DNA of 44,503 nucleotides from an uncultured Bacteroidia bacterium. Lineage in GTDB: Bacteria; Bacteroidota; Bacteroidia; Bacteroidales; UBA932. The stretch covers positions 1 through 44,503 of the forward strand of contig CADBAY010000005.1 in assembly GCA_902792815.1 (NCBI GenBank), read 5' to 3'. Below, in pieces: positions 11,776 to 40,230 of this stretch; position 1 is the stretch's first letter, and each line of letters starts with the position of its first letter. The translations under genes were made by a program, and so were the position numbers. The notes beneath the pieces were generated by a model. The model was not told the DNA's origin and searched no databases. It saw only the letters and a list, made by a program, of their open reading frames with translations.

Positions 11776-12668
11776 AGGACCGTATCGCTTCGGTCCGCAG
11801 TACTTTGAAGATCACTTCTGCGATGAAGCTGGTGGCTTCGTCGAAGCTACGCCGTGCGCAGAAGGCCATCGAGACGCTGCGGCCCTACGAGGAGACCCTC
11901 AGCTCGATTCTCGCATCCCTGACTGCCTCTGACCGTGCCTCTCAGGAGCTGGGGGTGTGGGTTCAGGGGTCCTTTGTCCTAAGTTTATGGACCCCTGAAC
12001 CCACACCCCACAGCCCCGAAGAATCTGACGCGCAAGGGAGGACGGTAGTGGTGGCGTTCTCGAGCAACAGCTCGATGTGCGGAGCGTTCAACAATAACGT
12101 CTCTAAGAAGGCGCTGGAAGTGCTGTCGGGAGTCAAGGGGCCCGTGGAGGTATGGACATTCGGCAAAAAGGCCGCCGAGGCCGTCAGGAAGGCAGGCTTC
12201 CCTCCGGCAAAGGATTTTATGGACGTGGTAGCGCATCCCGGTTTCGAAGCCGTAGCCGCAGCCTCGTCGGAGCTTCGCAAGCTTTACTCCGAAGGCGAAG
12301 TCTCCTCCGTCGTGCTCGTATATAACCATTTCGTCAGCACCGGCCGCCAGCAGGTGGTTGTCGAGCCTTTCCTTCCTTTCGAAGCGCCGCAGACGGAAGT
12401 AAAAGAAGACCCCGAAGAGCATTTCATCCTCGAACCGTCCCGCGAAGAACTGCTCCGGAGCCTTATCCCGCAAGTGCTGGACCTCAAGCTATATGCGGCC
12501 CTGCTTGACTCGTCGGCCGCCGAGCACGCTGCCCGTATGATAGCGATGCAGGCCGCCACCGACAATGGTGAGGGCCTGCTTTCGGAGCTTACGCTCGAGT
12601 ATAACAAGGGCCGCCAGCAGAAAATCACCTCCGAGATTCTCGACCTCGCAGGCGGAGCGGCTCATTAA
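11754..12668 (+). CDS. atpG: ATP synthase F1 subunit gamma with an in-frame palindromic insert
   Basis: This is the 304-residue rotor shaft subunit. Its N-terminal helix ([22 protein letters not shown]) and the C-terminal helix containing the [12 protein letters not shown] motif are intact. Residues about 65-87, between the first long helix and the [18 protein letters not shown] strand, are encoded by a 21-bp perfect palindrome with a 16-base loop (11952-12009). Family members have a short variable segment here, so the insert is probably tolerated at the surface. It ends the atp cluster and converges on the PorV/PorQ-like gene with only 2 bp between stops. Confidence 0.95.
11948..12014 (+). 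repeat. coding palindromic element in atpG
   Basis: Arm 11952-11972 (starting GGGGTGTGGGTTCAGG) is the exact reverse complement of arm 11989-12009: 21 bp without mismatch. The loop is TTTGTCCTAAGTTTAT. With one bulged base (12010), GCTG/CAGC extends the stem to 11948 and 12014. The frame stays open through both arms. Confidence 0.85.
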
Positions 12669-12670
12669 TC

Positions 12671-13516
12671 TTAGAATTCGTAGCCGAGGCTCACGAGGAA
12701 GGTGTTTCCGAGGGTCTCCGAGAGCAGCAGGAAGGTGCCGTCGAGGCGGAATCCCGCGTATTTGCCGCCGATACCCAGCGACAGGAAGGCAGGTAGGGCC
12801 TTTGCCGGGTCGCCGTAGTGGAAACCGGCGCGCGCGAAAGCAATGTCCTTGAATCCGTATTCAGCTCCGACGCCGGCCATAATCGCTCCGCTGAAGAGAT
12901 AGTCGGCTTCGCCGGCCACGGTCAGGCCCTCCAGGGGCTTGTAGAATCCGTCCACGCCCACCAGCGAAGGAATCGCATAGGAGTCGGATCCGTAACTGAT
13001 CTTGGTGCCGATATTGCGTCCGGCGAGTTCAACGCCCCATTTCTCTCCGCCGTAACGAACGAAAATGTCGCCGCAGAAAGAGCTGCCCTTGTTTTTCTCC
13101 GCCAGGGCGGAAGTCACGCTGCGAAGCGTCAGGCCGGCGCTCAGGGCGTCGGTGATGTAGTATTCTGCTCCCAGTCCTATGATAAGGTCGTAGGGCTTGA
13201 ATGAGCCTTTGAAAGCGCCTTGTTCTGAATAGATGTCGTAGGGTTTGTCGAGAAAAGTCTTTGCATCTAAAGTCAGGGCGAATTTATCCCCGGCCCTCAC
13301 AAATACATCTCCTGACACTACCGTATTATTTGCCGTCAGCGGCGCCCAATTGCCGTAGGAAACAGTAGCGGACAGTCCCGCAGCTTGATGGCGCAAAGCC
13401 GCTCCTCCCATTGCCAATGAGCGGCTGTCTGCGGGAATCAGGAGCGAAGACAAGGATTGTGCACACAAAAAAGGCCCGGAAGTTGCCAAAAATATGAGTA
13501 AGAAGAGTTTTCTCAT
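12671..13516 (-). CDS. PorV/PorQ-family outer-membrane barrel protein
   Basis: This 281-residue protein has a signal peptide (MRKLFLLIFLATSGPFLCAQ), the PADSRSLAMGGA motif typical of the PorV/PorQ family, and regular amphipathic beta-strands ending in an aromatic residue (SLGYEF). In T9SS organisms PorV shuttles cargo to the attachment complex, and PorQ belongs to the same machinery. It is shorter than classical PorV and closer to PorQ. It lies 5 bp downstream of a gene whose product carries a T9SS sorting domain, which supports a role in secretion or surface attachment of that protease. A generic barrel protein of the same family remains possible. Confidence 0.7.
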   Translation of the reverse strand: MRKLFLLIFLATSGPFLCAQSLSSLLIPADSRSLAMGGAALRHQAAGLSATVSYGNWAPLTANNTVVSGDVFVRAGDKFALTLDAKTFLDKPYDIYSEQGAFKGSFKPYDLIIGLGAEYYITDALSAGLTLRSVTSALAEKNKGSSFCGDIFVRYGGEKWGVELAGRNIGTKISYGSDSYAIPSLVGVDGFYKPLEGLTVAGEADYLFSGAIMAGVGAEYGFKDIAFARAGFHYGDPAKALPAFLSLGIGGKYAGFRLDGTFLLLSETLGNTFLVSLGYEF

Positions 13517-13521
13517 AGCGC

Positions 13522-16122
13522 TCAGATTTTAACTATTTCGTAAGTTTTGTCTATGCCCGCTCCGCTTATGCTGACATAATAAGTCCCGGCCGCGGCACTG
13601 CCCAGATCGATTGTGATAGGTTCGAAGACCGACCTCAGTTCATAATTGCCCGAGAATATCGTGGCCCCGGCTTTGTTGCTTATGCTTATTGCGACCGGTC
13701 CTGTCTTGGCGGATTTAATGTTCAGCTCCTTTTTCACAGGATTTGGATACAGATCAACCTCCCTGCTGTTGTCCGGGACAAGTATCATAAATGTCGCGCT
13801 ACACTTTTCGGACCTTGCATCGCTTGCCGTTATGGAGGCCTCAGTGAGCCCGTAGCCGAGCGAGGAGATGCTCAGCACGCTTCCGTTAGGTGCCATATGC
13901 GCCACTCCTGATACCGAGAAATTGATATCATAATGCAGATCTTCTCCGTCCGGATCGGAGAAATAGTCGCTTAAATCAATGGTGGCGCTTTCTCCTATGC
14001 CGCCCAGCATAATATTGTCCATTTGGCGGCTCAGAGCGGGAGCGTGGTTGTCAAGGACGACATAATGGATGGGATAGTCTGTTGACATCTTGTATTTATC
14101 GGTTGCCCTTATCGTGGCCGTGTATTCTCCCGGTTCCCCCTTCAGGGCGTTAAATGAGAGCCTTAGGCCTGAGGCTGTCTGTTGATAATTTAAAAACGCT
14201 TGTTCATCCGACTCAACCGTTATTTCGACAGCGTGGTTGTCAGGATCATAGATATTGAATTCCAGTGAAAGGAATTCGTGGGATTTTAACCTGTAATCGC
14301 CCGAATACTCGGTGCTTATCACAGGCGCGTGGTTCGGGCCTGTGGTAAGTTCCATAATGTTTGACATCTCCGAGCGGTTCTGCCAATAATCCTCGCTGAT
14401 GATACTGACGAAATACTTGCTTTCAAACTCAGGGACCTCGAGAGTGCCGTATATCGTTTCTCCCACTTCGGCCCTGTCAACTTCAACTGTCTTGCTTGTT
14501 ACCGAAGACGGTATGTTCTTGGGGTCGAGATTTTCCAATACGGACCTGTCGCGGGAAGCCAGCAGCAGATATGAATATGCTTTGACATCATCTGCATCCG
14601 CAGTAACTTTCCAGGCAAGGTTTATGAAATTGGACTTGACTTCCGCTGACTCGAAAGCCTCCACCTTTTCGGGAGCCTCTGTCCCGCCCATTGAGAATGA
14701 GCCATAGGCATCTACAAGAGGCCCTATGTTGGAATATTTTGGGGCTCCGTCCTTGTTGGCACCCTTAAGCAATCTTTCGAGCAACATTTCGTTGGTGAAG
14801 CCGGGGCCCCCGAAGTGAGACACGATGAGGGCGGCGACACCCGATACGTGGGGACAAGCCATAGATGTGCCCTGCATATTTCCATAGCGGCTGTCTGCGA
14901 TGCAACTTAAAATCGACGAACCTGCCTTGACATCGCCTCCCGGTGCACATATATCCACCCAGTCGCCGTAATTGGAGTAGTAAGCCCTGGTGCGCTTGGC
15001 CGATACGGAACCGACCGCCACGACGGCCTCATACTCGGCAGGCCAGGCGTGGCGCCAGGTTTCGTTGCCGGCTGCGAAAATCACCACGCCCCCTTTCATA
15101 GGACTGTCGGGCCTCTGCTCGCCGTTTTTGTCGCATCCTGCGTATTTTATGAAATAATCTATCCCTGCTTTTGAAGAGCGCGGACTGCCTGAGGCCGCTT
15201 CAGCCTCTGTCTCGTAAACGAAACCCCAGCTGTTGCTGGCTATGACCGCGCCGTTGTCGGCAGCCCACACAAAAGCTCCTGCGTCATCACCGTTCAATGT
15301 CTTCGGGAGGTCCGGATCATCAGGGTTTGGCACGATGCGCAGCATTTCGCAGGACATAATCCTGACGCCGCCTTTGCCGTCTTTGCCTCCAGCGATGCCG
15401 CAAATCCCCGTCCCGTTATTGTTGATGGCGGCTATGACTCCGGCGCAGTGCGTGCCGTGGTTGCCAGGCTCTATCTTGAAGCCTGCATTGCCGCTGATGA
15501 AGCACTTGCTTCCTCCCGGGCTTGCTTCGAGTGTGACGCCTGCAAGGTCGGGATGGTCGAGCTGGACTCCTTCATCGAGGACCGCCACTATCACCGAAGG
15601 GTCGCCGGCTCCATAACGCTCCCATACCGGCACCACATTAATGTCGCATCCTTTGTCGTAGGATGCACCTCTCGAGCCGTCGTTGTACAGTCCCCACTGC
15701 TTGTCGAACATAGGGTCATTGAAAAATCCGCAGGCCTTTTTCTTTCGTACGGGGCCTGCATAACAGACTCCTTGCAAGTCAGATATCCCCGCTGCGGCCT
15801 TCGTCAGGCTCAGGGACTCGTCATATTCGATTCTGTACCAGCGGTGCAATCCTGCCTCGCGGTGCCTGTCCTCCCATTCTTCATCGAAAGGGAAAATCCT
15901 CTCCATCGATTTGATGCCGGGATATACAAGTCCCTGACCGTTCTCTACTTTGGAGGCCATTTCTTCTGTCAACTCGACTTCGAGTAAGCCGCTCACCAGA
16001 TTCTTCTCTCCCAATGCTTCTTTGCTCTCCAATGCAGAGATGCTCTCTTGTTCAGGCCTGCAGGACAGGACGGAAATCAAGCTGACGGCAAGTATTGATA
16101 GCGCTGATAGGTGGAATCTCAT
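13522..16122 (-). CDS. subtilisin-like serine protease (S8) with T9SS sorting domain
   Basis: This 866-residue protease has the triad Asp183 (VLDEGVQLDH), His222 (NHGTHCAG) and Ser420 (GTSMACPHVSG), with the oxyanion Asn353. A fibronectin-like segment (about 490-590) and two Ig/cadherin-like repeats (about 595-790) follow. The end (from LYPNPVKKELNI, about 795) is a type A T9SS C-terminal sorting domain. The N-terminus ends in VLSC with Cys21, a possible lipobox, which is unusual in a T9SS cargo. The region 22-130 resembles a propeptide. It is preceded by a small exported protein and followed by a PorV/PorQ-like gene. Confidence 0.92.
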   Translation of the reverse strand: MRFHLSALSILAVSLISVLSCRPEQESISALESKEALGEKNLVSGLLEVELTEEMASKVENGQGLVYPGIKSMERIFPFDEEWEDRHREAGLHRWYRIEYDESLSLTKAAAGISDLQGVCYAGPVRKKKACGFFNDPMFDKQWGLYNDGSRGASYDKGCDINVVPVWERYGAGDPSVIVAVLDEGVQLDHPDLAGVTLEASPGGSKCFISGNAGFKIEPGNHGTHCAGVIAAINNNGTGICGIAGGKDGKGGVRIMSCEMLRIVPNPDDPDLPKTLNGDDAGAFVWAADNGAVIASNSWGFVYETEAEAASGSPRSSKAGIDYFIKYAGCDKNGEQRPDSPMKGGVVIFAAGNETWRHAWPAEYEAVVAVGSVSAKRTRAYYSNYGDWVDICAPGGDVKAGSSILSCIADSRYGNMQGTSMACPHVSGVAALIVSHFGGPGFTNEMLLERLLKGANKDGAPKYSNIGPLVDAYGSFSMGGTEAPEKVEAFESAEVKSNFINLAWKVTADADDVKAYSYLLLASRDRSVLENLDPKNIPSSVTSKTVEVDRAEVGETIYGTLEVPEFESKYFVSIISEDYWQNRSEMSNIMELTTGPNHAPVISTEYSGDYRLKSHEFLSLEFNIYDPDNHAVEITVESDEQAFLNYQQTASGLRLSFNALKGEPGEYTATIRATDKYKMSTDYPIHYVVLDNHAPALSRQMDNIMLGGIGESATIDLSDYFSDPDGEDLHYDINFSVSGVAHMAPNGSVLSISSLGYGLTEASITASDARSEKCSATFMILVPDNSREVDLYPNPVKKELNIKSAKTGPVAISISNKAGATIFSGNYELRSVFEPITIDLGSAAAGTYYVSISGAGIDKTYEIVKI

Positions 16123-16131
16123 ACGTGTAAA

Positions 16132-16827
16132 TTATTCCTTGTTAAACTGTCCGTAAAGAAAGACCACGATTTTCTCAAGGGAATCGGTCTCTTTCCATTT
16201 AATTTTTTCGGTCTTGAAAAAATCCTTGGCCTGTTTCTTGTCCACTCCTTCACAGGACATAATATTGCTTTTTGTGGCCGGGATAAGGCGATGGTCCACA
16301 TAGATATAGCGGGTGGTTTTTACCGGTATGGCGTTTGAAAAATATTTGTCTTTTTCTCCGGCTTCAAGGCTTTTGTTTATAAGGTCCATCCTTCCGTCCA
16401 GAAGGAGCGTAAGGTTCATCGACGAGCCCGTGGAGGACGATACTCCATAGCCTATGTCCACCTTGGATGCTTTGTCTTTGTCGAAAAGCACCTGCGAAAG
16501 GACGCATCCGAGATTCAACTCGGAAAGCACCTTGTACATTTTCCCTCCCACGTTGAGGTAGAGGTCGTCTCCGATAAGTGCCGTATAGACCTTTGACATA
16601 TCGGAGTTCATAATCTTATTGTCCTTATTGACATACAGCAATGCTCCATCCATTACCGAGACGTTGAACTGAGCATCGCTTATAAGGACTCCTGTCACGG
16701 TCCTGGCTGCGCCTTTCTGGAAATTCTCGTACACCAGCGGCCAAGTCTCCCTGGGTTCGAACTCCTGGGCTGCAACTGCCTGGCAGGCAAGGACAAATGT
16801 CAAGAACGAAATAATTATTTTTTTCAT
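16132..16827 (-). CDS. exported hypothetical protein, 231 aa
   Basis: The start at 16827 (MKKIIISFLTFVLACQAVAA) gives a standard signal peptide; an in-frame ATG four codons upstream (16839) is also possible. The mature protein alternates short strands and has paired positions such as VLISDAQFNVSV and ALLYVNKDNKIM. I do not recognise the family. It ends 9 bp before the subtilase start, so co-expression with the protease is likely. A terminator-like hairpin (16848-16869) separates it from the Sus block. Confidence 0.65.
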   Translation of the reverse strand: MKKIIISFLTFVLACQAVAAQEFEPRETWPLVYENFQKGAARTVTGVLISDAQFNVSVMDGALLYVNKDNKIMNSDMSKVYTALIGDDLYLNVGGKMYKVLSELNLGCVLSQVLFDKDKASKVDIGYGVSSSTGSSMNLTLLLDGRMDLINKSLEAGEKDKYFSNAIPVKTTRYIYVDHRLIPATKSNIMSCEGVDKKQAKDFFKTEKIKWKETDSLEKIVVFLYGQFNKE

Positions 16828-16847
16828 ACCTTGTTTCATACAAAGAA

Positions 16848-16869
16848 ACCCGCCCGGTTAAGGGCGGGT
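16848..16869 (-). terminator. hairpin between the Sus block and the protease genes
   Basis: Read on the - strand, ACCCGCCC-TTAACC-GGGCGGGT is followed by TTCTTTG, a strong 8-bp GC-rich stem with a partial U tract. It can end the susC-susD-lipoprotein transcript or act as a leaky attenuator upstream of the three protease-associated genes. Confidence 0.7.
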
Positions 16870-16888
16870 CCTCTGATTGTTCTCTGAC

Positions 16889-17830
16889 TTATTTCTTGAC
16901 AAATACTGTAGGATAATTTGCATTGAAAGTAGAGAATACTACGGTATAGTCGGTAAAGACAGTGTATTCTTTAATATCGCTGGGAGTACTGAATCCGTAG
17001 CAGTCGTTGGTAGTCCAGGCTTTGCTGGCCTCGTCGTAGGTGAACGTCACCTTCGCAGGCTCGGCGATATAGCCGCCTGAGGTGCCTTCGTGTGCGTAGA
17101 ACACGAAATTTTCGTTCAGGCCCCAAGGCGTTGCGGTAGATTTGCTGGTCTGAGGCGTAGAGAAGACGATGGTCTTCATATCTTCAGACACTGTACCCAC
17201 GACGCTCAGGTCATCCAGATATGATCCGTATGCGGCTGCGAATGGAGTCAGATTGTCGGCGAGTATCTTGTCGGGTTCGCCTTCTACAGCGCTCAGGGTC
17301 AAATCCCATTTAGGATAGCCAAGAGAACCTTTCTCGGCGTCTGTTATAGTGAGACCGGAGATGGTATATGTGCCGAACAGTGCCGAGAGCGGATGGTCCA
17401 GATCTTTGATCACGACTTTGCAGGCGTTCAGCGGAGCTATAGCGACTTCGTTGGTCGCATCTTTAAGCTTCACGGTGAAATCCTGGTTGCCTGTGTAAGT
17501 ACCGGGCTCGCCGATGACTTTTACCTCGATTGCAAGAGTGTCGGTGCCGGCAGGGAAATTGAGCACGCCGGAAGTGTTGGCGGGAGTGAAGTGCTTGCCG
17601 TTCTTTGCGCTTCCTTCCTCGAAAGTATAGGTCACGCTGCACTCGCCGTCCCTGTTATAGACATAGACCGGAATCTGTATGAGCTTGCCGGCTTCTGATT
17701 CCTCAACCTCTATGCTGCGGGAGTCTATTACCGCATACGGAGCCGGTGTGTACGTTGACACCTTGTTGCAGGCAAGGATGCTGACGGCGCCGGCTGCAAC
17801 GGCTAATATTTTGACAATATTCTTGTTCAT
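16889..17830 (-). CDS. Sus-associated lipoprotein with Calx-beta-like domain
   Basis: This 313-residue lipoprotein has a signal ending in SILAC (Cys21). Residues about 35-140 resemble a Calx-beta domain (SIEVEESEAGKLIQIPVYV, then VNFPAGTDTLAIEVKVIG-like strands). The C-terminal half (from GTYTISGLTITD) resembles the beta-sheet lipoprotein domain often found third in SusCD loci. By position it is the surface ligand-binding partner (SusE/F position), but it lacks recognisable starch-binding modules. It lies 12 bp after susD. Confidence 0.7.
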   Translation of the reverse strand: MNKNIVKILAVAAGAVSILACNKVSTYTPAPYAVIDSRSIEVEESEAGKLIQIPVYVYNRDGECSVTYTFEEGSAKNGKHFTPANTSGVLNFPAGTDTLAIEVKVIGEPGTYTGNQDFTVKLKDATNEVAIAPLNACKVVIKDLDHPLSALFGTYTISGLTITDAEKGSLGYPKWDLTLSAVEGEPDKILADNLTPFAAAYGSYLDDLSVVGTVSEDMKTIVFSTPQTSKSTATPWGLNENFVFYAHEGTSGGYIAEPAKVTFTYDEASKAWTTNDCYGFSTPSDIKEYTVFTDYTVVFSTFNANYPTVFVKK

Positions 17831-17842
17831 AATCTATCTGTT

Positions 17843-19354
17843 TTAATTAATAGCATCGTATCCAGTGTTCTGCACAAGGTTGTGGTTGACCTTCAGCTCG
17901 TGTGAAGGAATGGGCCACTGGAAGAAGTAGCTGTCGGATTTGAGGCTCTTGCCGTCGAAATACTGTCCTTGCTGGACCTGGTTGATGGCGCCGGACTGGG
18001 CGGTACGGTTCTCAAATCCTTTGCCCCAGCGCTTCAGGCAGCTCATCCTGAGGCCTTCGCCGATGGTCTCTTTGAACCACTCTTTCTGCACGTTCTCTGC
18101 CGTGGCCTCAGTCTGGCTGGCGCCGCGGGCGATCTGGAGTGCATTAAGGTCGGCCTTTGCGGCGGCAGGGGAGCTGGCAAGCTCTGCTTCGGCTGCTATC
18201 AGGTACATTTCGCTGATCTTGAGAGGCTTGGGGGCCTGACGGCCGTTGCGGATCGGCGAACTGGTGAGATCGGGGTTGCCGCGGTATTTCACGAAGGTGT
18301 AGAATTTGCCGGTGTAGTAGGTACCGGACAGCAGCACCGGAGTAGTGTTGTCAAACCAGCTCAGGAACCTCAGGTCGCTCTGCTCGTAGGAGTCGATTAC
18401 GGCTTTGGTGGGGATGTAGTAAGGCCTGAAGCATTCTCCGCCTTCAACTTTGTCGTCCTTCTGGGCGAGCAGGAGGTTGGCGTAGGAGTTGCCGGTGAAC
18501 TCGGTAAGGCTGATGGCAAGCTGCATAATCGCCTCGGTGCCGGCGTCGTTCACGAAGTCCTTGTTCAGATCTTCGAGGGTGGCAGCCAGAGCGTAGGTGC
18601 CGCCGTCTATGACCTTGTGTGCATATTCGGCTGCCTTGGCGTTCTCGCCCAAATCGAGGTAGTAGCGGGCATACAGCGCGTTGACAGCATCTATCGTAGG
18701 CTTCTGCGAGCGGACAGCACCCTTTACGCCTGCCAGATAGACCGCTGCGGAATCGAGGTCGGCGCCAATCTGCTTGTACACTGCTGCGACAGTTGCCCTC
18801 GCAGGACGGTCGTTAGGGGAGTATTTGACTACGAGAGGGACGCAGAGATCTGTCTCAGGAGCGCCCTTCACGGGAATCTTGCCAAACTGACGGGCCAGAT
18901 TCAGGTAAGAACTTGCCCTGAAGAAGAAGGCCTCGCCTCTCACAACGGCTGCATCCTTTACAAGATCCTCGGGTACGACCTGCAGGTTCTCGATGCACAC
19001 ATTGAAATTCTTGATGGCGAAGTAGTTGTATGCCCAGAAGTCCTCCACATAATAATCGGCGGAGGTGAAGTTCTGGTCCGTTTTGTGTATGCCGCCGTAA
19101 TTGTTGCCGAAGTCAATGGTGGCGTTGAATCCGTCAACCATAAATTCCTGAGGCAGCACGAAGTCTCCGTTCTGTATGGAACGATATGCAGACAGGATAC
19201 CATTCTCGAGGGCGCTGAGGTTGGTCTTGGTCTGAACCAGAGGGGTACCTTCAACGACCGCGATGGCGTTGTTGGGACTCAGGTTAAGGTCGCACGATGC
19301 AACAAAAGCAATCGAAAGGCCCGTCGCAAATATTTTTAAAATGTTCTTTTTCAT
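17843..19354 (-). CDS. susD: RagB/SusD-family surface nutrient-binding lipoprotein
   Basis: This 503-residue lipoprotein has a VASC lipobox (Cys21) and the tetratricopeptide-like N-terminal half typical of SusD. The C-terminal region contains RKEW-type sequence (VQKEWFKETIGEGLRMSCLKRWGKG), the standard end of SusD proteins. It caps the SusC channel and captures the ligand. The gap to susC is 11 bp. The linked subtilase suggests peptides as ligand rather than glycans, but that is inference. Confidence 0.94.
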   Translation of the reverse strand: MKKNILKIFATGLSIAFVASCDLNLSPNNAIAVVEGTPLVQTKTNLSALENGILSAYRSIQNGDFVLPQEFMVDGFNATIDFGNNYGGIHKTDQNFTSADYYVEDFWAYNYFAIKNFNVCIENLQVVPEDLVKDAAVVRGEAFFFRASSYLNLARQFGKIPVKGAPETDLCVPLVVKYSPNDRPARATVAAVYKQIGADLDSAAVYLAGVKGAVRSQKPTIDAVNALYARYYLDLGENAKAAEYAHKVIDGGTYALAATLEDLNKDFVNDAGTEAIMQLAISLTEFTGNSYANLLLAQKDDKVEGGECFRPYYIPTKAVIDSYEQSDLRFLSWFDNTTPVLLSGTYYTGKFYTFVKYRGNPDLTSSPIRNGRQAPKPLKISEMYLIAAEAELASSPAAAKADLNALQIARGASQTEATAENVQKEWFKETIGEGLRMSCLKRWGKGFENRTAQSGAINQVQQGQYFDGKSLKSDSYFFQWPIPSHELKVNHNLVQNTGYDAIN

Positions 19355-19365
19355 CTCTTTCCTGA

Positions 19366-22386: not shown

Positions 22387-22410
22387 AAGCGTTACTTTAA
22401 ATTAAACAAT

Positions 22411-22481: not shown

Positions 22482-22499
22482 TTTTTTTATTAAACAAAT

Positions 22500-22536: not shown

Positions 22537-22621
22537 TAGCATTTTCAGCATCTGCCCGTATATCAATTAATAATATTTTTTGTAATGATTTAAAGTTTTT
22601 CGGGCGAATTCGATTGATTTT

Positions 22622-28124: not shown

Positions 28125-28132
28125 CGCAGTAT

Positions 28133-29045: not shown

Positions 29046-30126
29046 ACTGCTGGCAGCAGCGGCTGTTATGCTTCTTGCCGCCTGTACTCCCAAGGCGCAG
29101 ATCGACTGCACCGTGGCCCAGGCTCCCCGCAGCGAGGTTTCGGTGCGCCTGCTGGACATGAATGTGTTCAAGGTGCTGGATACGGTCAAGACAGACGCTT
29201 CCGGGCGCCTGCGCTATAAGGTTGATGTCAAGGAAGGGGACCCTGAGTTTGTGTATCTTTATTACAAAGACACCAAAATCGCTTCTCTACTTCTGGAGAA
29301 GGGCTCCAGGGTGAGCGTGGTCGCCGATACACTTGGCAATTATTCCGTTACCGGTTCCGGGGAGTCGGAAAAGCTCCGCGAGCGCGAGAAGGCATACGCC
29401 CGTTTCCAGGCCGATATGGATTCAACCATGGAGCCTGCGGAACTGTCCCGTATCTTCATCGCCCATTACCGCGACAACGTCAAGTACGTTATGGGCAATA
29501 TGGGTTCGCTGACGGTAGTGCCCGTGCTTTTCGAGCAGCTTGACATCTACACGCCTGTGTTCAACCAGAATACGGACGCCATCCTTTTCCGTAAAGTTTG
29601 CGACAGCCTCAAGACCGTCTATCCTCTCTCCCGTTATGTCAAGGCCCTCGAGGCCGAGACGGCCCGCCGCGAGAACGCGCTTCAGGTCAAGTATATACTT
29701 GATTCCGCCGAAGAACGCGGCTATCCCGACCTTAACTTGCCCGCCATCAGCGGCGAGCGCGTTTCAATGTCGGGGCTGGGAGCCAAGGCAGTGCTGCTGC
29801 ATTTCTGGGATTCTTCCGATGCGACCCACAAGATGTTCAACCTCGACACTCTCCTCCCTATTTGGGAGAAGTGGCACGGCAAGGGCTTCGAGATCTATTC
29901 AGTGGACGTCAATCCCGACAAATCGGCCTGGGCATCAGTAGTCAAGGCGCAGAATCTTCCCTGGATCAACGTCAACGACGGACGCGGCCCGGCATCTTCG
30001 TCCTTAGCGACCTACAATGTTTCATCCGTCCCTTCTTCCTTCCTGCTTACCGATGAAGGCATGACGGTTACGGACTTGAGCGGCGGTGACGCCTTGCAGA
30101 AAGAACTTCAGCGCATACTCAAATGA
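29032..30126 (+). CDS. thioredoxin-fold lipoprotein (DUF4369 plus TlpA-like) lacking CxxC
   Basis: The start at 29032 gives a clear lipoprotein signal (MRSFKLLAAAAVMLLAAC, Cys18). Residues about 22-115 resemble the DUF4369 domain that precedes many TlpA/ResA-like proteins in this phylum. Residues about 225-355 are a thioredoxin fold (VLLHFWDSSDATHKMFNLDT, VPSSFLLTDEG with the cis-proline region). The catalytic CxxC is replaced by Asp-Ala-Thr-His, so thiol-disulfide exchange is not possible at that site. A binding or structural role is more likely. It overlaps HIT (14 bp) and araB (ATGA). Confidence 0.85.
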   Translation: MRSFKLLAAAAVMLLAACTPKAQIDCTVAQAPRSEVSVRLLDMNVFKVLDTVKTDASGRLRYKVDVKEGDPEFVYLYYKDTKIASLLLEKGSRVSVVADTLGNYSVTGSGESEKLREREKAYARFQADMDSTMEPAELSRIFIAHYRDNVKYVMGNMGSLTVVPVLFEQLDIYTPVFNQNTDAILFRKVCDSLKTVYPLSRYVKALEAETARRENALQVKYILDSAEERGYPDLNLPAISGERVSMSGLGAKAVLLHFWDSSDATHKMFNLDTLLPIWEKWHGKGFEIYSVDVNPDKSAWASVVKAQNLPWINVNDGRGPASSSLATYNVSSVPSSFLLTDEGMTVTDLSGGDALQKELQRILK

Positions 30127-33049: not shown

Positions 33050-33801
33050 AAGAGCTTCTTGCTTACCGTAGCTACAAAATCTTTCAGATAGAAAGGCTCG
33101 AAATAAGCTATATCCCTGAAATTGCCGGCGTTGAATTCTTTCAGCGCCGGTTTTTTCATGCCCTCTGCCGTCGGGCACTCCTGGCGGAACCAACGCCCGG
33201 GCCCCTCCAGTACGCAGCGACACTTATCTACTCCATCCCCAATGAACAATATACCGTCTGTCGCTGGCGTGCTGATGCCCCCGGAGCGACTTTGGCCCTT
33301 ACGAACAGGAGCTCCGGGGGCATCAGCAGCCAGCAACATATCGGTAAAGCTGCTGTCGACAACCTTCGGTGCGACCTCGGTAAGGCGCTGGCCCTCAGCG
33401 GAATAGAGAGCGGAATAAACTTCCATCCGGCGGGCGTCGATCATAGGAACGATATACTCGCACCCCTCCGGCAGACCGGCCTCTATAGCCTGCGCCGCAA
33501 GCACGTCCAGCGTACCCACCGCAAGCAGCGGAATACCTCCCCCGAAACAAAGCCCCTTGGCAGTAGAAGACCCCACGCGGAGTCCGGTATAAGACCCGGG
33601 ACCCATACTCAGGCACACAGCATCGCAGTCGCTTACCTTAAGGCCCCTCTCGTCCAGAATCTCCTTTACATAAGGAGCCGTCATGGACGCATGGGCGCGC
33701 GGCTCGACGCTATGACGTACGGCGGTAATTTCATCCCCCTCCAGCAGGGCGGCGGAGCATAGCGAAGTGGAAGTCTCCAGCAGGATTATACGGACTGGCA
33801 T
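33046..33801 (-). CDS. tsaB: tRNA threonylcarbamoyladenosine biosynthesis protein TsaB, with palindromic insert
   Basis: This 251-residue ASKHA-fold partner of TsaD is needed for t6A37 in ANN-decoding tRNAs. The N-terminus (IILLETSTSLCSAALLEG) and GPGSYTGLRVG motif are typical. Residues about 156-180 (ADAPGAPVRKGQSRSGG and following) derive from a near-perfect palindrome (33263-33334). Without it the length is close to the family's usual 225-230. The start overlaps the end of cvpA by 16 bp. Confidence 0.94.
   Translation of the reverse strand: MPVRIILLETSTSLCSAALLEGDEITAVRHSVEPRAHASMTAPYVKEILDERGLKVSDCDAVCLSMGPGSYTGLRVGSSTAKGLCFGGGIPLLAVGTLDVLAAQAIEAGLPEGCEYIVPMIDARRMEVYSALYSAEGQRLTEVAPKVVDSSFTDMLLAADAPGAPVRKGQSRSGGISTPATDGILFIGDGVDKCRCVLEGPGRWFRQECPTAEGMKKPALKEFNAGNFRDIAYFEPFYLKDFVATVSKKLF
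33125..33156 (+). terminator. intrinsic terminator of the greA-araB-FAD run, inside tsaB
   Basis: CCGGCGTTGAA-TTCT-TTCAGCGCCGG (33125-33150) forms an 11-bp RNA stem with one G-U pair and a 4-base loop. Six T follow (33151-33156). It is placed 75 bp beyond the + strand stop at 33049 while also being tsaB coding sequence on the other strand. Confidence 0.75.
33263..33334 (-). repeat. coding palindromic element in tsaB
   Basis: The 25-base arm 33263-33287 pairs with the 24-base arm 33311-33334 with only one bulged base (33269). The inner part reads TGCTGATGCCCCCGGAGC. The loop is 23 bases and, on the tsaB coding strand, contains CCAAAGT (33295-33289). The span from 33263 to 33334 is 72 bp, 24 codons. 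Confidence 0.85.
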
Positions 33802-34316
33802 GCCTCTGTAGTATTGCCTGTAATGAACTGATCGATAAACACTTTGAGCTGCGGCACAAGGCCTGCGGCGAAATCTCTCAAAATGGGATAGACCTTCAGG
33901 TCCTCAAACTTTTCGGGGGCAACTATATTCCAGCTGGCATTAAGCCCCTCGAACACCGAAATGAGCAGCCCGAGCAGCAGGGCGGTTGTGAAAATTGCAA
34001 ACAAGCCACCGAGCAGGCGGTTAAGCCAGCCGAGCGTAGCCACTTTGATCAATTTGGTGATCAAATGCCCTACCAGGGCCATTACCAGCGCGCTTATCAA
34101 GAAGATAGCAATGAAACACACCACGTGCGTTACCGGCTCTTCGGTGCCGAACTGCAGCATAGCCACCTGGGTGAGGTCCGGCGAGAAGCGGCTGGCCAGT
34201 ATGGCGCCCACAATCACCGAAAGGAGCGAAACTATCTGGGTAATAATACCTTTGGCAATGCCGATGATGATTCCCGGCACAAACAGGGCGAGTAATATTA
34301 TATCAATAGTTGCCAT
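33786..34316 (-). CDS. cvpA: CvpA-family membrane protein
   Basis: This 176-residue protein has four hydrophobic segments and the family's N-terminal pattern (IDIILLALFVPGIIIGIAKGI, SLLSVIVGAILA). The NRLLGGLFAIFTTALLLG segment is also typical. CvpA proteins are inner-membrane proteins linked to envelope homeostasis and colicin V production; the molecular role is unsettled. A near-consensus -7 element (TAGCTTTT, 34331-34324) lies 7 nt upstream of the ATG. It overlaps tsaB by 16 bp. Confidence 0.88.
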   Translation of the reverse strand: MATIDIILLALFVPGIIIGIAKGIITQIVSLLSVIVGAILASRFSPDLTQVAMLQFGTEEPVTHVVCFIAIFLISALVMALVGHLITKLIKVATLGWLNRLLGGLFAIFTTALLLGLLISVFEGLNASWNIVAPEKFEDLKVYPILRDFAAGLVPQLKVFIDQFITGNTTEACQSV

Positions 34317-34347
34317 TTGATAAAAAGCTACGAAATGATTATATTTG
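34316..34347 (+). promoter_or_regulatory. promoter of the ileS-lspA operon
   Basis: TTTG (34316-34319) is followed after 20 bp by TATATTTG (34340-34347), an excellent match to the Bacteroidota consensus. The leader to the ATG at 34387 would be about 35 nt. The -33 element overlaps the cvpA start codon on the other strand. Confidence 0.7.
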
Positions 34348-34386
34348 CAAGATTAAAATTCACTAGTGCAAAAGTAACTAAAAAAT

Positions 34387-37300
34387 ATGACATTCAAAGA
34401 ATATAAAGGCCTTGACCTTGTAGCCGCCGGAAACGAGATATTGGAGCGGTGGAAGCAGAGGGGTGCGTTCGAGAAATCTCTGAACTTGCGTGAAGGTGCG
34501 CCTGAATTCATATTCTTCGAAGGCCCGCCCAGCGCCAACGGTATGCCCGGTATCCATCACGTGATGGCCCGCAGCATCAAGGACGCCGTGTGCCGTTACA
34601 AGACCCAGAGCGGTTTCAAAGTGCGCCGCAGGGCCGGCTGGGATACCCACGGCCTGCCCGTCGAGCTGGGAGTTGAAAAGAAACTCGGCATCACTAAAGA
34701 AGATATAGGCAGCAAGATAAGCGTGGCCGACTACAATGCCGCCTGCCGCCGTGAGGTCATGAAATACACCGCCGAGTGGCGCAACCTCACCGAGCGCATA
34801 GGTTACTGGGTTGATATGGACGACCCTTACATCACCTACGACAACCGCTATATCGAGACTCTCTGGTGGCTCCTTAAAGACATTTACGGCAAGGGTCTGC
34901 TTTACAAGGGCAAATCCATTCAGCCTTACAGCCCCGCTGCAGGCACCGGTCTCAGCACCCACGAGCTCAATCAGCCCGGCTGCTACCGTGATGTTAAAGA
35001 TACCACTTGCTGCGCCCAGTTCAAGGTAGTGGGTGAGGAAGATCTTTACTTCCTGGCTTGGACCACAACCCCCTGGACCCTTCCGTCCAATACCGCACTG
35101 TGCGTCGGACCGGACATCGACTACGTCAAAGTGCGCAGCGCCAATCCTTACACAGGCGCTCCGGCTACATACATCCTCGCCCAGGCTCTTGTAGGCGCCT
35201 GGTTCAACGACAAAGTGCCTTACGAAGTGCTCCCGGGCACTTTCAAGGGCCGCGAGCTGGAGGGCATGCGTTATGAACAGCTCATTCCCTGGTTCCGTCC
35301 CGACGAGGGCGCTTTCCGCGTAATCCTCGGAGATTATGTCACCACCGAAGACGGTACGGGCATTGTCCATATCGCTCCTACCTTCGGCGCCGACGATGCC
35401 AAGGTGGCGCGCCTTGCCGGAGTTCCCGGCCTGTATGTCACCGACCGTGACGGCGCTCCGCAGGCTCAGGTCGATCCCAAGGGCCGCTTCTACCGCGTCG
35501 AAGACCTCGATCCGGCCTATGTGGCCGACCGTGTTGACCCTTCTTACGGAGAATGGGCCGGACGCTACGTTAAGAACGCCTACGATTCTTCCCTGGCTCC
35601 CGACGCCCCGACTCTCGACGTTGACATCTGCGTCATGCTTAAGGCCGCAGGCAAGGCCTTCCGCATCGAGAAGCACGTTCATACTTATCCTCATTGCTGG
35701 CGCACCGACAAGCCCGTGCTGTACTACCCGCTCAACAGCTGGTTCATCCGTACCACCGCCGTGCGCGAGCAGATGATGGCCCTGAACGATACCATTGAAT
35801 GGAAGCCTGAATCGACGGGTACCGGGCGCTTCGGTAAGTGGCTGGAGAACATCCAGGACTGGAACCTCAGCCGCAGCCGCTACTGGGGAACGCCCCTTCC
35901 TATCTGGCGTACCGAAGACGGCAAGGAAGAGATATGCATCGGCAGCGCTGCCGAGCTCTATGAGCAGATAGATAAGTCGGTGGAGGCCGGTTTCATGGCC
36001 TCTAACCCCCTGAGGGACGCAGGTTTCGACCCTGCGGATATGAGCCGTGCCAACTACGACCGTATCGACCTGCACCGCCCTTACGTGGATGAGATATTCC
36101 TCGTCAGCCCCAGCGGCCGTAAGATGATTCGCGAGAAGGACCTCATTGACGTGTGGTTCGACTCGGGCGCCATGCCTTACGCCCAGACGGGTCTGCGCGG
36201 TAAGGAGACTTCCGATTTCGGATGTACCGCCGACTTCATCGCAGAAGGCGTGGACCAGACTCGCGGGTGGTTCTACACCCTGCACGCCATCCATACCATG
36301 GTAAGCGGTACGCCCGCTTTCAAGAGGGTCATCTCCAACGGCCTGGTGCTCGACAAGAAGGGAGAGAAGATGAGCAAACGCCTCGGCAACGCGGTCAATC
36401 CGTTCGAGGCCATGGACAAATACGGGCCCGACGCCCTTCGCTGGTATATGCTCACCAACGCCCAACCTTGGGACAATCTCAAGTTCGACGAGGCTGGAGT
36501 GGAAGAGGTGCGCCGCAAGTTCTTCGGTACCCTGTACAATTCCTATTCGGTGTTTGCGCTGTATGCCAACATCGACGGTTTCGATCCGTCCTCGCCCATG
36601 GTGCCCTATGCTTCGCGTCCGCTCTTCGACCGTTGGATAATAAGCAAGCTCAACACTCTGGTGAGCCGCGTCAAAGAGGCTTACGAAGACTACGATATCA
36701 CAGCTGCAGGCCGTCTGGTGCAGGATTTCGTGTGCGACGACCTGAGCAACTGGTACATTCGCCTGAATAAGAAGCGCCTTTGGGGAGCAGGTATGAACCC
36801 CGACAAGATGGCTTGCTACCAGACGCTTTACGAGATCCTCAAGGGCGTCGCCCTGCTGGGTGCGCCTATAGCTCCGTTCTTTATGGAGAGGCTCTGGCTC
36901 GACCTTGTGCCCGGCAGCGAGTCGGTGCATTTCGAACCCATGCCGAGGGCAAATTCCGTGCTGGTTGACGAGGCTCTTGAAGAGAGCATGGCCTTTGCGC
37001 AGAAGGCTTCGTCCATGGTGCTCGCACTCCGCAAGAAGGTTGGGATCAATGTCCGCAAGCCTCTTGCCAAGGTGCTCGTGCCTGTGCTCGACGACGAGGT
37101 GCGCTCCCACATCGAAAAGGTCAAGGATATCTTCCTTACCGAGGTCAACGTCAAGGAAATCGAGTTCCTGCACGATACGACCGGCATCATCACCAAGAAG
37201 ATCAAGCCCAACTTCAAGACTTTGGGCAAAATTTACGGCAAGCAGATGAAGGAGATAGCTGCAGCGTTCGCCACTCTCGGCCAGGATGTCATTGCGGGCA

Positions 37301-38139
37301 TCGAGGGCTCCGAAGAGTACGTGCTGGATCTTCCTTCCGGCCCCGTGGCTCTGCACCCCGGCGACTATGAAATCAGTTCCGAGGATATGCCCGGCTGGCT
37401 CGTCGCCACCGAGGGAAGCCTTACCGTAGCTCTTGATATTGTCCAGACTCCCGAGCTGGTGCTCGAGGGCGCTGCTCGCGAGCTCATCCATCCTATCCAG
37501 AACCTTCGTAAGGAAAGCGGCTTCGATTTGACCGACCGTATCAGTACCGAGGTTTATGCCGACGGTCCCGCCCACGAGCTTATCTCCAAGGCGCTTGAGG
37601 CTTTCGGCGAATATGTGTCAAACCAGACTCTTTCCACTTCTCTTGTCCTCAAGCCTCTTGCCGAGGCTCCTGCGGACTCGGCCGAGGTGGCCTGGGAAGA
37701 AGGAGTCATCAAAATAAAACTAAATCGTAATACAAATATGGCAGAAGAAACAAAAACTCGTTATTCCGACGAGGAACTCGCCGAATTCAAGGCTATTATC
37801 GACGAGATGCTCTCCAAGGCCAGGGCGGAGTACGATACTCTCCGTCAAGTAATCATGCACAACGGCTCCAACGACATCGAGGACACTTCGCCCTCGTTCA
37901 AGACCGTTGAGGACGACGGTGCAAACCAACTCTCCAAGGAGGAGGCAAGCCAGCTTGCCCAGCGCCAGTACAAGTTCATCCAGAACCTCGAGGCTGCTTT
38001 GGTCCGCATCGAGAACAAGACTTACGGCATTTGCCGTGAGACCGGTAAACTTATCCCTAAAGAGAGGCTCCGTCTGGTTCCGCACGCAACCCTTACGGTG
38101 GAAGCTAAAGAGAAACTCGCCAAGGCCGGCAGGAAATGA
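34387..38139 (+). CDS. ileS: isoleucyl-tRNA synthetase fused in frame to a TraR/DksA-family protein
   Basis: One uninterrupted frame of 1250 codons. Residues 1-1117 are class I IleRS. The HIGH-type motif lies in PSANGMPGIHHVM (His57-His58), the editing domain follows (LAWTTTPWTLPSNTAL), the KMSKR loop is at 661-665, and the anticodon-binding and C-terminal regions follow. Residues 1118-1250 start MAEETKTRYSDEELAEFK and form a complete TraR/DksA-type protein. These are usually two adjacent genes in this phylum. The linker IKIKLNRNTN has no stop, and an A/T-rich stretch precedes Met1118, so an internal start may still produce the small protein alone. It overlaps lspA in ATGA. Confidence 0.93.
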   Translation: MTFKEYKGLDLVAAGNEILERWKQRGAFEKSLNLREGAPEFIFFEGPPSANGMPGIHHVMARSIKDAVCRYKTQSGFKVRRRAGWDTHGLPVELGVEKKLGITKEDIGSKISVADYNAACRREVMKYTAEWRNLTERIGYWVDMDDPYITYDNRYIETLWWLLKDIYGKGLLYKGKSIQPYSPAAGTGLSTHELNQPGCYRDVKDTTCCAQFKVVGEEDLYFLAWTTTPWTLPSNTALCVGPDIDYVKVRSANPYTGAPATYILAQALVGAWFNDKVPYEVLPGTFKGRELEGMRYEQLIPWFRPDEGAFRVILGDYVTTEDGTGIVHIAPTFGADDAKVARLAGVPGLYVTDRDGAPQAQVDPKGRFYRVEDLDPAYVADRVDPSYGEWAGRYVKNAYDSSLAPDAPTLDVDICVMLKAAGKAFRIEKHVHTYPHCWRTDKPVLYYPLNSWFIRTTAVREQMMALNDTIEWKPESTGTGRFGKWLENIQDWNLSRSRYWGTPLPIWRTEDGKEEICIGSAAELYEQIDKSVEAGFMASNPLRDAGFDPADMSRANYDRIDLHRPYVDEIFLVSPSGRKMIREKDLIDVWFDSGAMPYAQTGLRGKETSDFGCTADFIAEGVDQTRGWFYTLHAIHTMVSGTPAFKRVISNGLVLDKKGEKMSKRLGNAVNPFEAMDKYGPDALRWYMLTNAQPWDNLKFDEAGVEEVRRKFFGTLYNSYSVFALYANIDGFDPSSPMVPYASRPLFDRWIISKLNTLVSRVKEAYEDYDITAAGRLVQDFVCDDLSNWYIRLNKKRLWGAGMNPDKMACYQTLYEILKGVALLGAPIAPFFMERLWLDLVPGSESVHFEPMPRANSVLVDEALEESMAFAQKASSMVLALRKKVGINVRKPLAKVLVPVLDDEVRSHIEKVKDIFLTEVNVKEIEFLHDTTGIITKKIKPNFKTLGKIYGKQMKEIAAAFATLGQDVIAGIEGSEEYVLDLPSGPVALHPGDYEISSEDMPGWLVATEGSLTVALDIVQTPELVLEGAARELIHPIQNLRKESGFDLTDRISTEVYADGPAHELISKALEAFGEYVSNQTLSTSLVLKPLAEAPADSAEVAWEEGVIKIKLNRNTNMAEETKTRYSDEELAEFKAIIDEMLSKARAEYDTLRQVIMHNGSNDIEDTSPSFKTVEDDGANQLSKEEASQLAQRQYKFIQNLEAALVRIENKTYGICRETGKLIPKERLRLVPHATLTVEAKEKLAKAGRK
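37738..38139 (+). CDS. TraR/DksA-type domain of the fusion; possible internal start
   Basis: Translation from the ATG at 37738 gives a 133-residue protein of the normal size for this family. It has a long N-terminal coiled coil (DEMLSKARAEYDTLRQVIM) and a C-terminal YGICRETGKLIPKERLRLVPHA segment. Only one of the zinc-finger cysteines is present (Cys in GICRETG). DksA-type proteins bind RNA polymerase's secondary channel; whether this version does so is untested. Upstream bases are A-rich (AAACTAAATCGTAATACAAAT is just over the usual window), as at many starts in this phylum. Confidence 0.6.
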   Translation: MAEETKTRYSDEELAEFKAIIDEMLSKARAEYDTLRQVIMHNGSNDIEDTSPSFKTVEDDGANQLSKEEASQLAQRQYKFIQNLEAALVRIENKTYGICRETGKLIPKERLRLVPHATLTVEAKEKLAKAGRK

Positions 38140-38705
38140 AAATCTCCAGAGGCGCGAGGCTGATAGCTCTCGGAGTGATACTCGTGGTCATCGACCAGGT
38201 AATCAAGTACCTGGTCAAGACCAATATGTCGCTGGGGCAGCAGATTTATGTCCTCGGCGACTGGTTCCGCCTGTGTTTTGTGGAGAACGAGGGCATGGCC
38301 TTCGGCATGAAGTTCGGCGGATCGGTGGGGAAGTTCCTCCTATCGCTTTTCCGTATCGTTTTGTGCGGCGCTTTGGTTTGGTGGATTAGTTCGCTGAACC
38401 GCAAGAAGAAGGCTCCCGTGGGAGTGCTGGTGGGTTTGACTCTCATCACTGCGGGCGCTTTTGGCAATATAATAGACTGTTTGTTCTACGGGCTTATCTG
38501 GGATTACGCTCCGTTTATGTTCGGCAGGGTGGTGGATATGTTTTATTTTCCGCTTATCCATAATGCCGCAGGCGAGGTGGTGTTCTTCAGCCCCGTATTC
38601 AATTTTGCAGATTCCTGCGTTACTGTAGGAGCATTCTACCTTGTTCTGTTCCAATGGAAATTCTTTGCCTCCGATGACAAGAAGAAGGAACAGAAGGCAG
38701 AATAG
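38136..38705 (+). CDS. lspA: lipoprotein signal peptidase (signal peptidase II)
   Basis: This 189-residue aspartic protease with four membrane segments cleaves lipoprotein signals at the lipid-modified cysteine. DQVIKYLVK near the N-terminus, NEGMAFG, GNIID (Asp114) and FNFADS (Asp159) are the conserved blocks; the two Asp form the catalytic dyad. The spacing between them is longer than in E. coli, as in other Bacteroidota. A long hairpin begins 6 bp after the stop, and the next gene's start (38674) lies inside its last codons. Confidence 0.95.
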   Translation: MKISRGARLIALGVILVVIDQVIKYLVKTNMSLGQQIYVLGDWFRLCFVENEGMAFGMKFGGSVGKFLLSLFRIVLCGALVWWISSLNRKKKAPVGVLVGLTLITAGAFGNIIDCLFYGLIWDYAPFMFGRVVDMFYFPLIHNAAGEVVFFSPVFNFADSCVTVGAFYLVLFQWKFFASDDKKKEQKAE

Positions 38706-40230
38706 CGTTTGCGGTATCGGCAGGCAGTGCCCTCCGGAAGCCTTTTCCCAAAGTATTTTGGCTTCCGGAGGGCACTGCCTGTCGATACTGCTGGTGGCTT
38801 TTCTGCTCGTGGGTGCCGTTTCGTGCCGGCCGACGGCAGGGACGGAGCTGCAAAACTTCGCGCAGAGCGCTCATCCCTCCCAACCTGACGGTTGGGCCCC
38901 TCCCGTTCACATAGCCACGGGCGGCTATGGTTTTGCTGCTCCGTCCCTGCTGTCGGCGGACGGAAAGAGGGTTACCGGATGGATGATGGGAACGAGCCGT
39001 CTGTATCCTTCGGAATTTGCCCCTCTCCCCAGTCCCCCTGCAGGCTACAAGCCCGTGTATATCACGCACTACGGGCGTCACGGGTCGAGATATCTTGTCA
39101 ATCCGGGGCAGTATGCGGCCGTCAATTCTATTCTTGAAAAGGCCGCCGCCGACAGCATGCTTACTCCGGAGGGCCAGAGGATATGGCAGACTTATTCCGA
39201 CGTTTATCCTTTGCTCGACAAGCGCGAGGGGGAGCTTACTCCGCTTGGCGCTATGCAGCACCGCGGAATCGCGCGCCGGATGGTCGGGCGCTATCCTTCG
39301 CTTTTCAAGAAGAACGCACGCATCGAGGCCAATTCGACCAATCTGGAGCGGACGATGCTCTCGATGTTTTATTTTACCCGGGAATTGCTCTCGCTCCGCC
39401 CCGGCCTGGATATTCACGCCGATGCGTCCCGAAGCTACATGGGTGTAATCAACCAGCATACGCTGGAGAATCCGCGGGCTACCGAATACGATGTGCAATG
39501 GAAGAAGGGGGATGGCCTGTGGCGTCCTGCTTTCGATGCCTATGTGGCCGATATAATCGATCCGGAACCTTTCTGCAAGCGTCTGTTTGCCGATTATGAT
39601 TATCTTCGGGGACTGTGCGACCCGCTCGATTTCGAGAGAACTTTCTTCGATGTCGCGATGAATTTTCCCAGCTGCGGATTCCCTAATATTCTTGATGCTT
39701 TCACTTCCGATGAACTCCTCCTCCTGGGACGCCTCGACAATTGTTCGTTCTATATCGGCAAGAGCCGGTTCCCCGGGGGCGATAAGCGCGGGTGCTACCT
39801 GTCGGAGGCGGTGCTGGGAGATATCATCGACAGGGTGGAGCCTGACATAGAGTCGGGTGTGAGGGTGCGCCTCCGCTTCGGGCACGACGGCTGCATGATG
39901 GCTCTTCTGGCCATGCTTAAAGTTGATGGCTGGGGCGCTGAGTTAGAGGACTTTAGCTGCTCCTGGGAAGTGTGGGACGTGTCGCAGATTCCTATGGCGG
40001 CCAACCTTCAGCTGGTGTTTTTCCGCGGGCGGAGAGGAGACCTGATTTTCCTTCCGCTGCTAAACGAGCAGCCCCTCTCACTGCCTTTGGAGAGTATTGA
40101 CGGCGCCTATTACAGCTGGGAACGGTTCGTCACTTATTGCGGGCCAATCTTGCGGGAAGCCCGCGAGGCTCTTTCCGTCCCGCCCGTACCTGTGGTAATT
40201 CCATATTTAGGCGAAACGCAGGTTAAATAG
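38674..40230 (+). CDS. histidine phosphatase (clade 2) lipoprotein, second copy, with palindrome in the signal peptide
   Basis: The start at 38674 (MTRRRNRRQNSV) supplies a basic n-region. Translation then runs through a 32-bp-stem palindrome (residues about 13-40) before the hydrophobic core and lipobox AVSC (Cys51). Removing the palindrome would join MTRRRNRRQNSV to LVAFLLVGAVSC, an ordinary lipoprotein signal. The 518-residue protein has the HYGRHGSR motif (Arg135-His136, Arg139) and a C-terminal RFGHD motif, and is paralogous to the product of 25370-26719. The substrate is probably a phosphomonoester such as inositol phosphates (family inference). It overlaps lspA by 32 bp. Confidence 0.85.
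   Translation: MTRRRNRRQNSVCGIGRQCPPEAFSQSILASGGHCLSILLVAFLLVGAVSCRPTAGTELQNFAQSAHPSQPDGWAPPVHIATGGYGFAAPSLLSADGKRVTGWMMGTSRLYPSEFAPLPSPPAGYKPVYITHYGRHGSRYLVNPGQYAAVNSILEKAAADSMLTPEGQRIWQTYSDVYPLLDKREGELTPLGAMQHRGIARRMVGRYPSLFKKNARIEANSTNLERTMLSMFYFTRELLSLRPGLDIHADASRSYMGVINQHTLENPRATEYDVQWKKGDGLWRPAFDAYVADIIDPEPFCKRLFADYDYLRGLCDPLDFERTFFDVAMNFPSCGFPNILDAFTSDELLLLGRLDNCSFYIGKSRFPGGDKRGCYLSEAVLGDIIDRVEPDIESGVRVRLRFGHDGCMMALLAMLKVDGWGAELEDFSCSWEVWDVSQIPMAANLQLVFFRGRRGDLIFLPLLNEQPLSLPLESIDGAYYSWERFVTYCGPILREAREALSVPPVPVVIPYLGETQVK
38711..38791 (+). repeat. coding palindromic element in the phosphatase signal peptide
   Basis: Arm 38711-38742 pairs with arm 38760-38791 in RNA over 32 bp with two G-U pairs and no mismatch. 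The inner 22 bp (beginning CAGGCAGTGCCCTCCGG) are perfect in DNA. The loop is TTTTCCCAAAGTATTTT. Total length is 81 bp (27 codons). It starts 6 bp after the lspA stop. Confidence 0.9.

Follow-up and report, generated by a model that had tools for sequence, protein, structure and literature searches.

Short palindromes with shared loops and paired arm differences within and between genes of one Bacteroidales genus, and a possible role of template switching in their maintenance

The 44,503-nt contig CADBAY010000005.1 of assembly GCA_902792815.1, from an uncultured Bacteroidia bacterium (Bacteroidales; UBA932), contains short palindromes in or near atpG, tsaB and a phosphatase gene; the whole contig is referred to below as the window. 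Our analysis has shown that these palindromes belong to several loop families, whose members stand between genes and in frame within them, differ in pairs along their arms, have loops inverted between related genomes, and are present at some orthologous sites and absent from others. We give somewhat better than even credence to the reading that they are palindromic inserts, probably arriving as whole units, and that template switching at replication maintains the complementarity of their arms and flips their loops. Genomes are designated by G numbers (G000 is this genome, 2.37 Mb), fetched loci by L numbers and contigs by C numbers; RUG392 (G224) is the nearest named relative, as judged by AtpG. 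The palindromes of the window, and one site empty here, are the following.

11952-12009, plus strand: family A palindrome in frame in atpG (PF00231); 21-bp arms, 100% paired; 16-nt loop 11973-11988, TTTGTCCTAAGTTTAT; model score 56.5 bits.
33270-33328, minus strand: family B palindrome in frame in tsaB (APVRKGQSRSGG; PF00814); 18-bp arms, 100% paired; 23-nt loop 33288-33310, TCCTGTTCGTAAGGGCCAAAGTC on the coding strand.
38711-38791, plus strand: family A palindrome near the phosphatase gene (PF00328); 32-nt arms, 94% paired; 17-nt loop 38743-38759, TTTTCCCAAAGTATTTT; model score 42.3 bits.
38829-38957, plus strand: family C palindrome within that phosphatase gene, in its 5' coding part; arms of 28 nt around a 73-nt loop (38857-38929).
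2154-2174, plus strand: empty site in a glycoside hydrolase family 3 (GH3) gene, whose copy in G070 (Pfam match) holds a 69-nt family B palindrome.

According to Pfam, the host genes encode the ATP synthase gamma subunit, a protein of the TsaD family (the name tsaB is kept from the first-pass annotation of this DNA) and a histidine phosphatase. That annotation had correctly placed the first three palindromes, as well as the heptamer CCWAAGT in their loops (CCTAAGT at 11978; CCAAAGT at 33295-33289 on the minus strand and at 38748) and its reading phase. It had also treated the three as one family with CCWAAGT as the defining core, and here the data disagree: the atpG and phosphatase elements form family A, while the tsaB element belongs to family B with another 23-nt loop, and a covariance model of family A recovers the former two and misses the latter. 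CCWAAGT is found in the loop of only 6 out of 67 family A palindromes and occurs in the window no more often than expected by chance (7 times, 8.5 expected), so that it was rejected as a core in favor of TTTTCCCAAGTTTTAT and its variants; its occurrence in all three window elements is a coincidence between two families. The description of all three as coding palindromes applies to atpG and tsaB, which are read in frame. The phosphatase element starts 6 bases past an open frame stopping at 38705, that is, between genes, and enters the signal-peptide start of a histidine-phosphatase-like lipoprotein, hence it is only partly coding; plasmid records yielded no match to it. The arms of the atpG palindrome extend imperfectly outward beyond the listed coordinates.

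The family A loop is about TTTTCCCAAGTTTTAT, and the units are mostly 58-81 bp long. With at most three mismatches, the pattern TTTTCCCAAGTTTTATGGG occurs at 14 places in the genome, compared to none for the reversed control, and 12 of these places sit in palindromes (an earlier, looser pattern had given 17 places and 10 control matches). The covariance model, built from 12 family A elements, finds 21 places in this genome at E<=1 and 20 at E<=0.01; the matches at the ends of contigs C9 and C32 have common sequence and possibly represent one element. In the alignment of these 12 sequences 89% of cells pair, compared to 63% after shuffling, and none of 500 shuffles reached the observed value on any measure. 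Thus, a recurring core with variable yet complementary arms, as had been proposed from the window alone, is a genuine genome-wide pattern. Contigs end at, inside or near palindromes in G000 (C9, C22, C31, C32) and G071 (C42, C88, C104, C146, C166, C205), so the counts per genome are probably lower bounds. Two adjacent family A palindromes occupy G000:C10:13497-13624 (L033, L142), and at the same place in G070 there is a half element (left arm and loop) beside a whole one, with differing arms.

The 67 family A palindromes were gathered from loci of several genomes, and the arm profile was calculated for the 53 of them with 16-18-nt loops away from contig ends. Contig-end or weak palindromes (L140, L194, L198, L199, L201, L139, L054) were left out before counting, as were two contig-end palindromes with implausibly long arms (128 and 171 nt); the outer-motif count additionally omits L161 and L151. 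The arms are 15-33 bp long (median 28 bp) and perfect in 23 of the 53. Their information content ranges from 0.4 to 1.8 bits over the 12 positions nearest the loop and does not exceed 0.27 bits at positions 13-26. Pairing amounts to 87-100% out to position 26, compared to 18-24% at positions 33-36; since the set had been selected as palindromes, the inner pairing is partly built in, though the threshold does not force long arms. Hence, the first-pass claim that the arms have no shared sequence stands for their outer part, while the inner 12 nt are partly common within family A. Even the outer arms retain a faint motif: GCAG is present in 14 of 53 arms with 2.9 expected (the top 4-mer count in 500 shuffles being 13), and CGGCAG in five with 0.19 expected (top 6-mer count in shuffles likewise five). 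Among the cells within arms, 1412 of 1461 are Watson-Crick pairs, 17 are G-T, 22 are A-C and 10 are other combinations.

The family B core TCCTGTTCGTAAGGGCCAAAGTC was found at nine listed places among the fetched loci, eight of them letter-identical and one with a single change; RUG392 has one further match outside these nine. The arms are mostly dissimilar, with only 6 of 36 arm pairs alike (matched by at most 10 of 500 shuffles): one joins the tsaB orthologs, another the two copies that share a gene, and the other four all involve a single short arm of 13 nt. Outside the window there are eight copies, six of which have 2-4 mismatched pairs. There are seven gene-borne sites, with tsaB of G000 and G070 counted once: tsaB, GH3, GH92, altronate dehydratase, PolA, and two in one long Pfam-less open frame of G070 (L291:1071-3764, minus strand), where both palindromes are in the same frame and their arms resemble each other. 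At all seven the core is read in the sense direction, as PVRKGQSR at six and in another frame in PolA, while copy L293 is in no long frame. Longer cores (families C and E) also occur in palindromes with differing arms, a loose loop filter giving 24 candidate cases.

Orthologous sites were compared using one genome per species, and the arm changes are unpolarised. In eleven ortholog pairs the same core is present on both sides; the tandem pair on C10, the different-site elements L034/L205 and the AtpG elements of distant species were omitted from this count. The loop is inverted in six pairs (atpG vs RUG392, 38829 vs G070, L169/L203, L173/L202, TruA vs G070, L035/L193) and unchanged in five (L032/L161, tsaB vs G070, C15:34200 vs G070, L041/L191, L185/L198, the last two being cut by a contig end). 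Base pairs of the arms were classified as unchanged, changed on one arm, or changed on both. These counts are 20/0/10 for the AtpG elements L060/L067, which are sister rows in the AtpG tree and whose arm similarity was reached by none of 500 shuffles, 16/5/11 for L169/L203, 21/2/5 for L173/L202, 22/2/4 for 38829 vs G070, and 30/0/0 for L032/L161. As unrelated palindromes also differ on both arms, paired changes count as evidence of rewriting only for arms that still resemble each other, such as those of L060/L067. Overall, the comparisons are consistent with the rewriting of arms suggested by the first-pass annotation.

Several sites are filled in one genome and empty in another. In GH3 the difference is 69 nt, the size of the whole G070 palindrome. 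The TruA linker has 40 residues here, 13 in RUG392 and 14 in G128, and is short in most of 30 relatives. At C15:27298, RUG392 is shorter by 104 nt, which exceeds the element. When checked for the target-site duplication typical of a MITE-type transposon, the flanks at empty sites proved too diverged for clean boundaries. The core of the phosphatase element is absent from G070, which has a palindrome with 12-nt arms and a 3-nt loop there, and from RUG392, which has none. Similarly, L297 (G000 C12) has 26-nt arms and a 3-nt loop, while in G070 nearly the same arms flank a 66-nt family C core; no palindrome of the L297 type is present between ordered flanks in four relatives (G128, G011, G004, G136). 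The tsaB site contains family B in this genome and in G070, and family C in RUG392. RUG392 is 30 nt shorter in atpG at the point where, in the window, sequence continuing the right arm repeats the left flank in inverted form; we dropped this comparison as proof of outward arm growth, since a deletion in RUG392 explains it equally well.

Family A copies are read in frame in AtpG, TruA (AAFFPGFFAAG) and DnaG (AQNIGEKG) of this genome, and several copies are at most 10 nt past the end of a long open frame. Both the family A and the family B core are open in five of six frames. Peptide loops resembling FPKYFG may also occur in other Bacteroidales proteins. Among 80 AtpG loci, 19 have a palindrome with a score of at least 15 inside atpG, compared to none among shuffled loci (N runs and two palindromes 3' of the gene were excluded). 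The AtpG tree, calculated by a quick method with poorly filled columns dropped, comprises 53 rows (44 best loci, 8 hand-picked ones and the window), 28 of the 80 loci being left out. Its seven family A rows require at least three changes of state; five of them fall in one supported clade of seven, which favors inheritance with arm rewriting inside that clade. Alternatively, a permissive protein loop may have received insertions repeatedly.

Family A has a patchy distribution in a single genus of Bacteroidales, with one stray match outside. With at most two mismatches, the pattern is present in 21 of 200 genomes of the genus. Five of these (G000, G070, G071, G128, G218) account for 55 matches and no control matches, while the remaining 16 contain 18 matches, the only palindrome among which has 6-bp arms; all 11 control matches of this search fall outside the five rich genomes. 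The covariance model gives two matches in RUG392, four further matches in 36 same-genus genomes, of which only those in G011 and G035 resemble family A palindromes, and no matches in 24 genomes of the same order. A spread over the phylum was rejected, as among 197 other genomes of the phylum, at up to one mismatch, one genome has a single match, fewer than the six of the reversed control. The carriers are related to Bacteroidales of the ruminant stomach.

Template switching is described as homogenising the arms of quasi-palindromes and inverting their spacers in yeast coding sequence (available text of PMC8604942) and as maintaining hairpins via double substitutions (available text of PMC8794818). 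Spacer inversion is present here, and the paired arm differences would fit arm homogenisation. We favor the following scheme. Short palindromes of several loop families would have spread between and within genes of one Bacteroidales genus, where they are tolerated in frame; the entire palindrome would probably be inserted as one unit, moved by a factor acting in trans. At replication the arms would form a hairpin, and the polymerase would switch template between them, transferring the changes of one arm to the other, while a switch between strands would invert the loop. Given such arm-to-arm copying, the arms would drift as a pair and family sequence would be lost from the outside inward, the loop and the inner arm remaining recognisable.

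Several observations weigh against this scheme. Some elements decay on one side, with arm-pair counts of 24/3/3 in TruA and 15/3/0 in tsaB and a change on one arm at C15:34200, and beyond L060/L067 most AtpG arm pairs are not clearly alike. The AtpG elements of the window and L071, which are apart on the tree, agree in their loop and at 16 of 21 arm pairs, which suggests transfer or slow arm change there. The long TruA linker is also found, with other sequences, in G071, G218, G190 and G027. The family B loop is identical in eight of its nine listed places despite the mostly dissimilar arms, which calls for the core to be constrained or for the arms to have arisen differently. Moreover, template switching leaves the narrow arm length unexplained; the inverted loops here are 16-73 nt long, compared to 2-5 nt in the available text of PMC8604942; and the compared genomes gave no sign of movement and no transposase that could be tied to the elements.

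Another origin of the arms is offered by the idea that the loop core alone is mobile and the flank is copied backwards at each insertion, the arms thus being fresh and unrelated between sites. It would account for the near-identical family B loops, for the scarcity of family sequence in the outer arms of family A, and for the right arm of atpG as an inverted left flank, though the latter difference may equally be a deletion in RUG392. On the other hand, the gains in GH3 and TruA fit a whole palindrome with both arms rather than a core and one arm, the outer arms keep the faint GCAG motif, and the alike family B arm pairs include the tsaB orthologs and the two copies in one gene; we consider this explanation unlikely. 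Inverted copying around the core at insertion, as the first-pass annotation had envisaged, finds no support at these two sites, yet it may still apply because family B joins near-identical cores to mostly dissimilar arms. A mobile unit consisting of the loop alone, each landing writing new complementary arms of about 28 bp from local sequence, is a doubtful proposition; if true, shape and loop rather than ends would define such a mobile element, and a single genus would contain several unrelated loop families. It is quite unlikely, in our opinion, that cores insert into pre-existing palindromes or swap between palindromes. The pair of L297 and its G070 counterpart, the 3-nt-loop palindrome of G070 at the phosphatase site, and the exchange of families in tsaB could be read in this way, but loss of a core by template switching or slippage leaves an identical trace, the phosphatase site of G070 is consistent with a deletion between short TGCC repeats, and the compared AtpG, TruA and GH3 genes contain no core-less long palindromes.

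The location of several copies just behind long open frames, and covariation exceeding all shuffles on every measure, would also be expected from functional RNA hairpins (terminators or mRNA stabilisers), in which the arm changes are selected compensatory substitutions. However, copies occur within the coding regions of AtpG, TruA and DnaG, the loops are found in either orientation, and the non-pairs show no excess of G-T over A-C such as RNA selection would leave. An Rfam search of four sources (the window, L173, L205 and L285) at the gathering score yielded only a tRNA and no family matching the hairpins. This explanation appears very unlikely. Finally, artefacts in the assembly of metagenome-derived genomes could be suspected from the contigs ending in these palindromes and from the two contig-end palindromes with 128- and 171-nt arms; as different genomes have common elements at the same site (L032/L161) and long genes are kept open by the in-frame copies, such an origin is highly improbable.

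Some features of these elements resemble known systems. Rickettsia palindromic elements (RPEs) are also short palindromic inserts, found in frame in conserved protein genes and between genes (PMC2229807, as far as its available text goes). In-frame insertion of this kind is observed here in AtpG, TruA, DnaG and TsaB, with Pfam matches. RPEs are longer (105-146 bp in the available part of PMC2229807) than family A units and, here, there are several loop families, a distinction drawn by description only. RPEs lose repeat identity over time, according to the accessible part of PMC6649704, while here the arms often appear to change in pairs. The first-pass annotation had given family sequence along the whole element, arms included, as an RPE trait, and the low information at arm positions 13-26 shows that family A lacks it. 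Nematomorph mitochondria have perfect inverted repeats in coding sequence with concerted evolution of arms, template switching being a possible cause; the available text of PMC6649704 describes no dispersed loop family for them, whereas here the loops are common to many sites. Likewise, the yeast quasi-palindromes mentioned above differ from the dispersed insert family studied here. In-frame palindromic inserts and concerted coding palindromes are already known (PMC2229807, PMC6649704, both as available). Our literature searches, covering few subscription journals, found no paper on such elements in Bacteroidales.

REP/REPIN sequences, associated with RAYT proteins, are also short dispersed palindromic repeats, and proteins of the corresponding family PF01797 are present in the genomes considered here. 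The stems of REP sequences are conserved. PF01797 proteins were found in 18 of 25 genomes (14 above the cut-off), both with and without family A, and none of the three PF01797 loci of this genome has a palindrome of families A-C. Among 20 PF01797 loci examined, a below-cut-off one in G128 (C9, L274) is about 1.7 kb from a family A palindrome, and L272 has a family C palindrome. As the distribution of PF01797 does not follow that of family A, a RAYT/Y1 transposase as the mover has no support.

Since orthologous sites record the conversion of arms, the inversion of loops and the loss of cores, elements with a lasting loop and drifting paired arms provide a large set of natural replicates in which bacterial template switching can be measured. 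Strong covariation, often held to prove a selected RNA structure, may come from DNA copying alone. Moreover, the elements are natural peptide inserts in essential enzymes.

Other features of the window deserve mention. In the region 9000-13300, AtpG is 95% identical to that of RUG392 and 64% identical to L061 (G070), while parts of the region 22000-44000 are 85-95% identical to G070 DNA; this contrast reflects either a recombination mosaic or a chimeric assembly. The segment 40274-40422 includes a tRNA (40274-40358) and, directly behind it, a palindrome with perfectly paired 26-bp arms around a 13-nt loop; its stem contains an A/T run, and it may act as a terminator in both directions. A 51-nt unit (CCGTGTGCAAAACGGGCCTTCCTGCCCCCGGGACC...) is repeated in tandem at 40588-41403, and related stretches occur at several places in G070 and RUG392.

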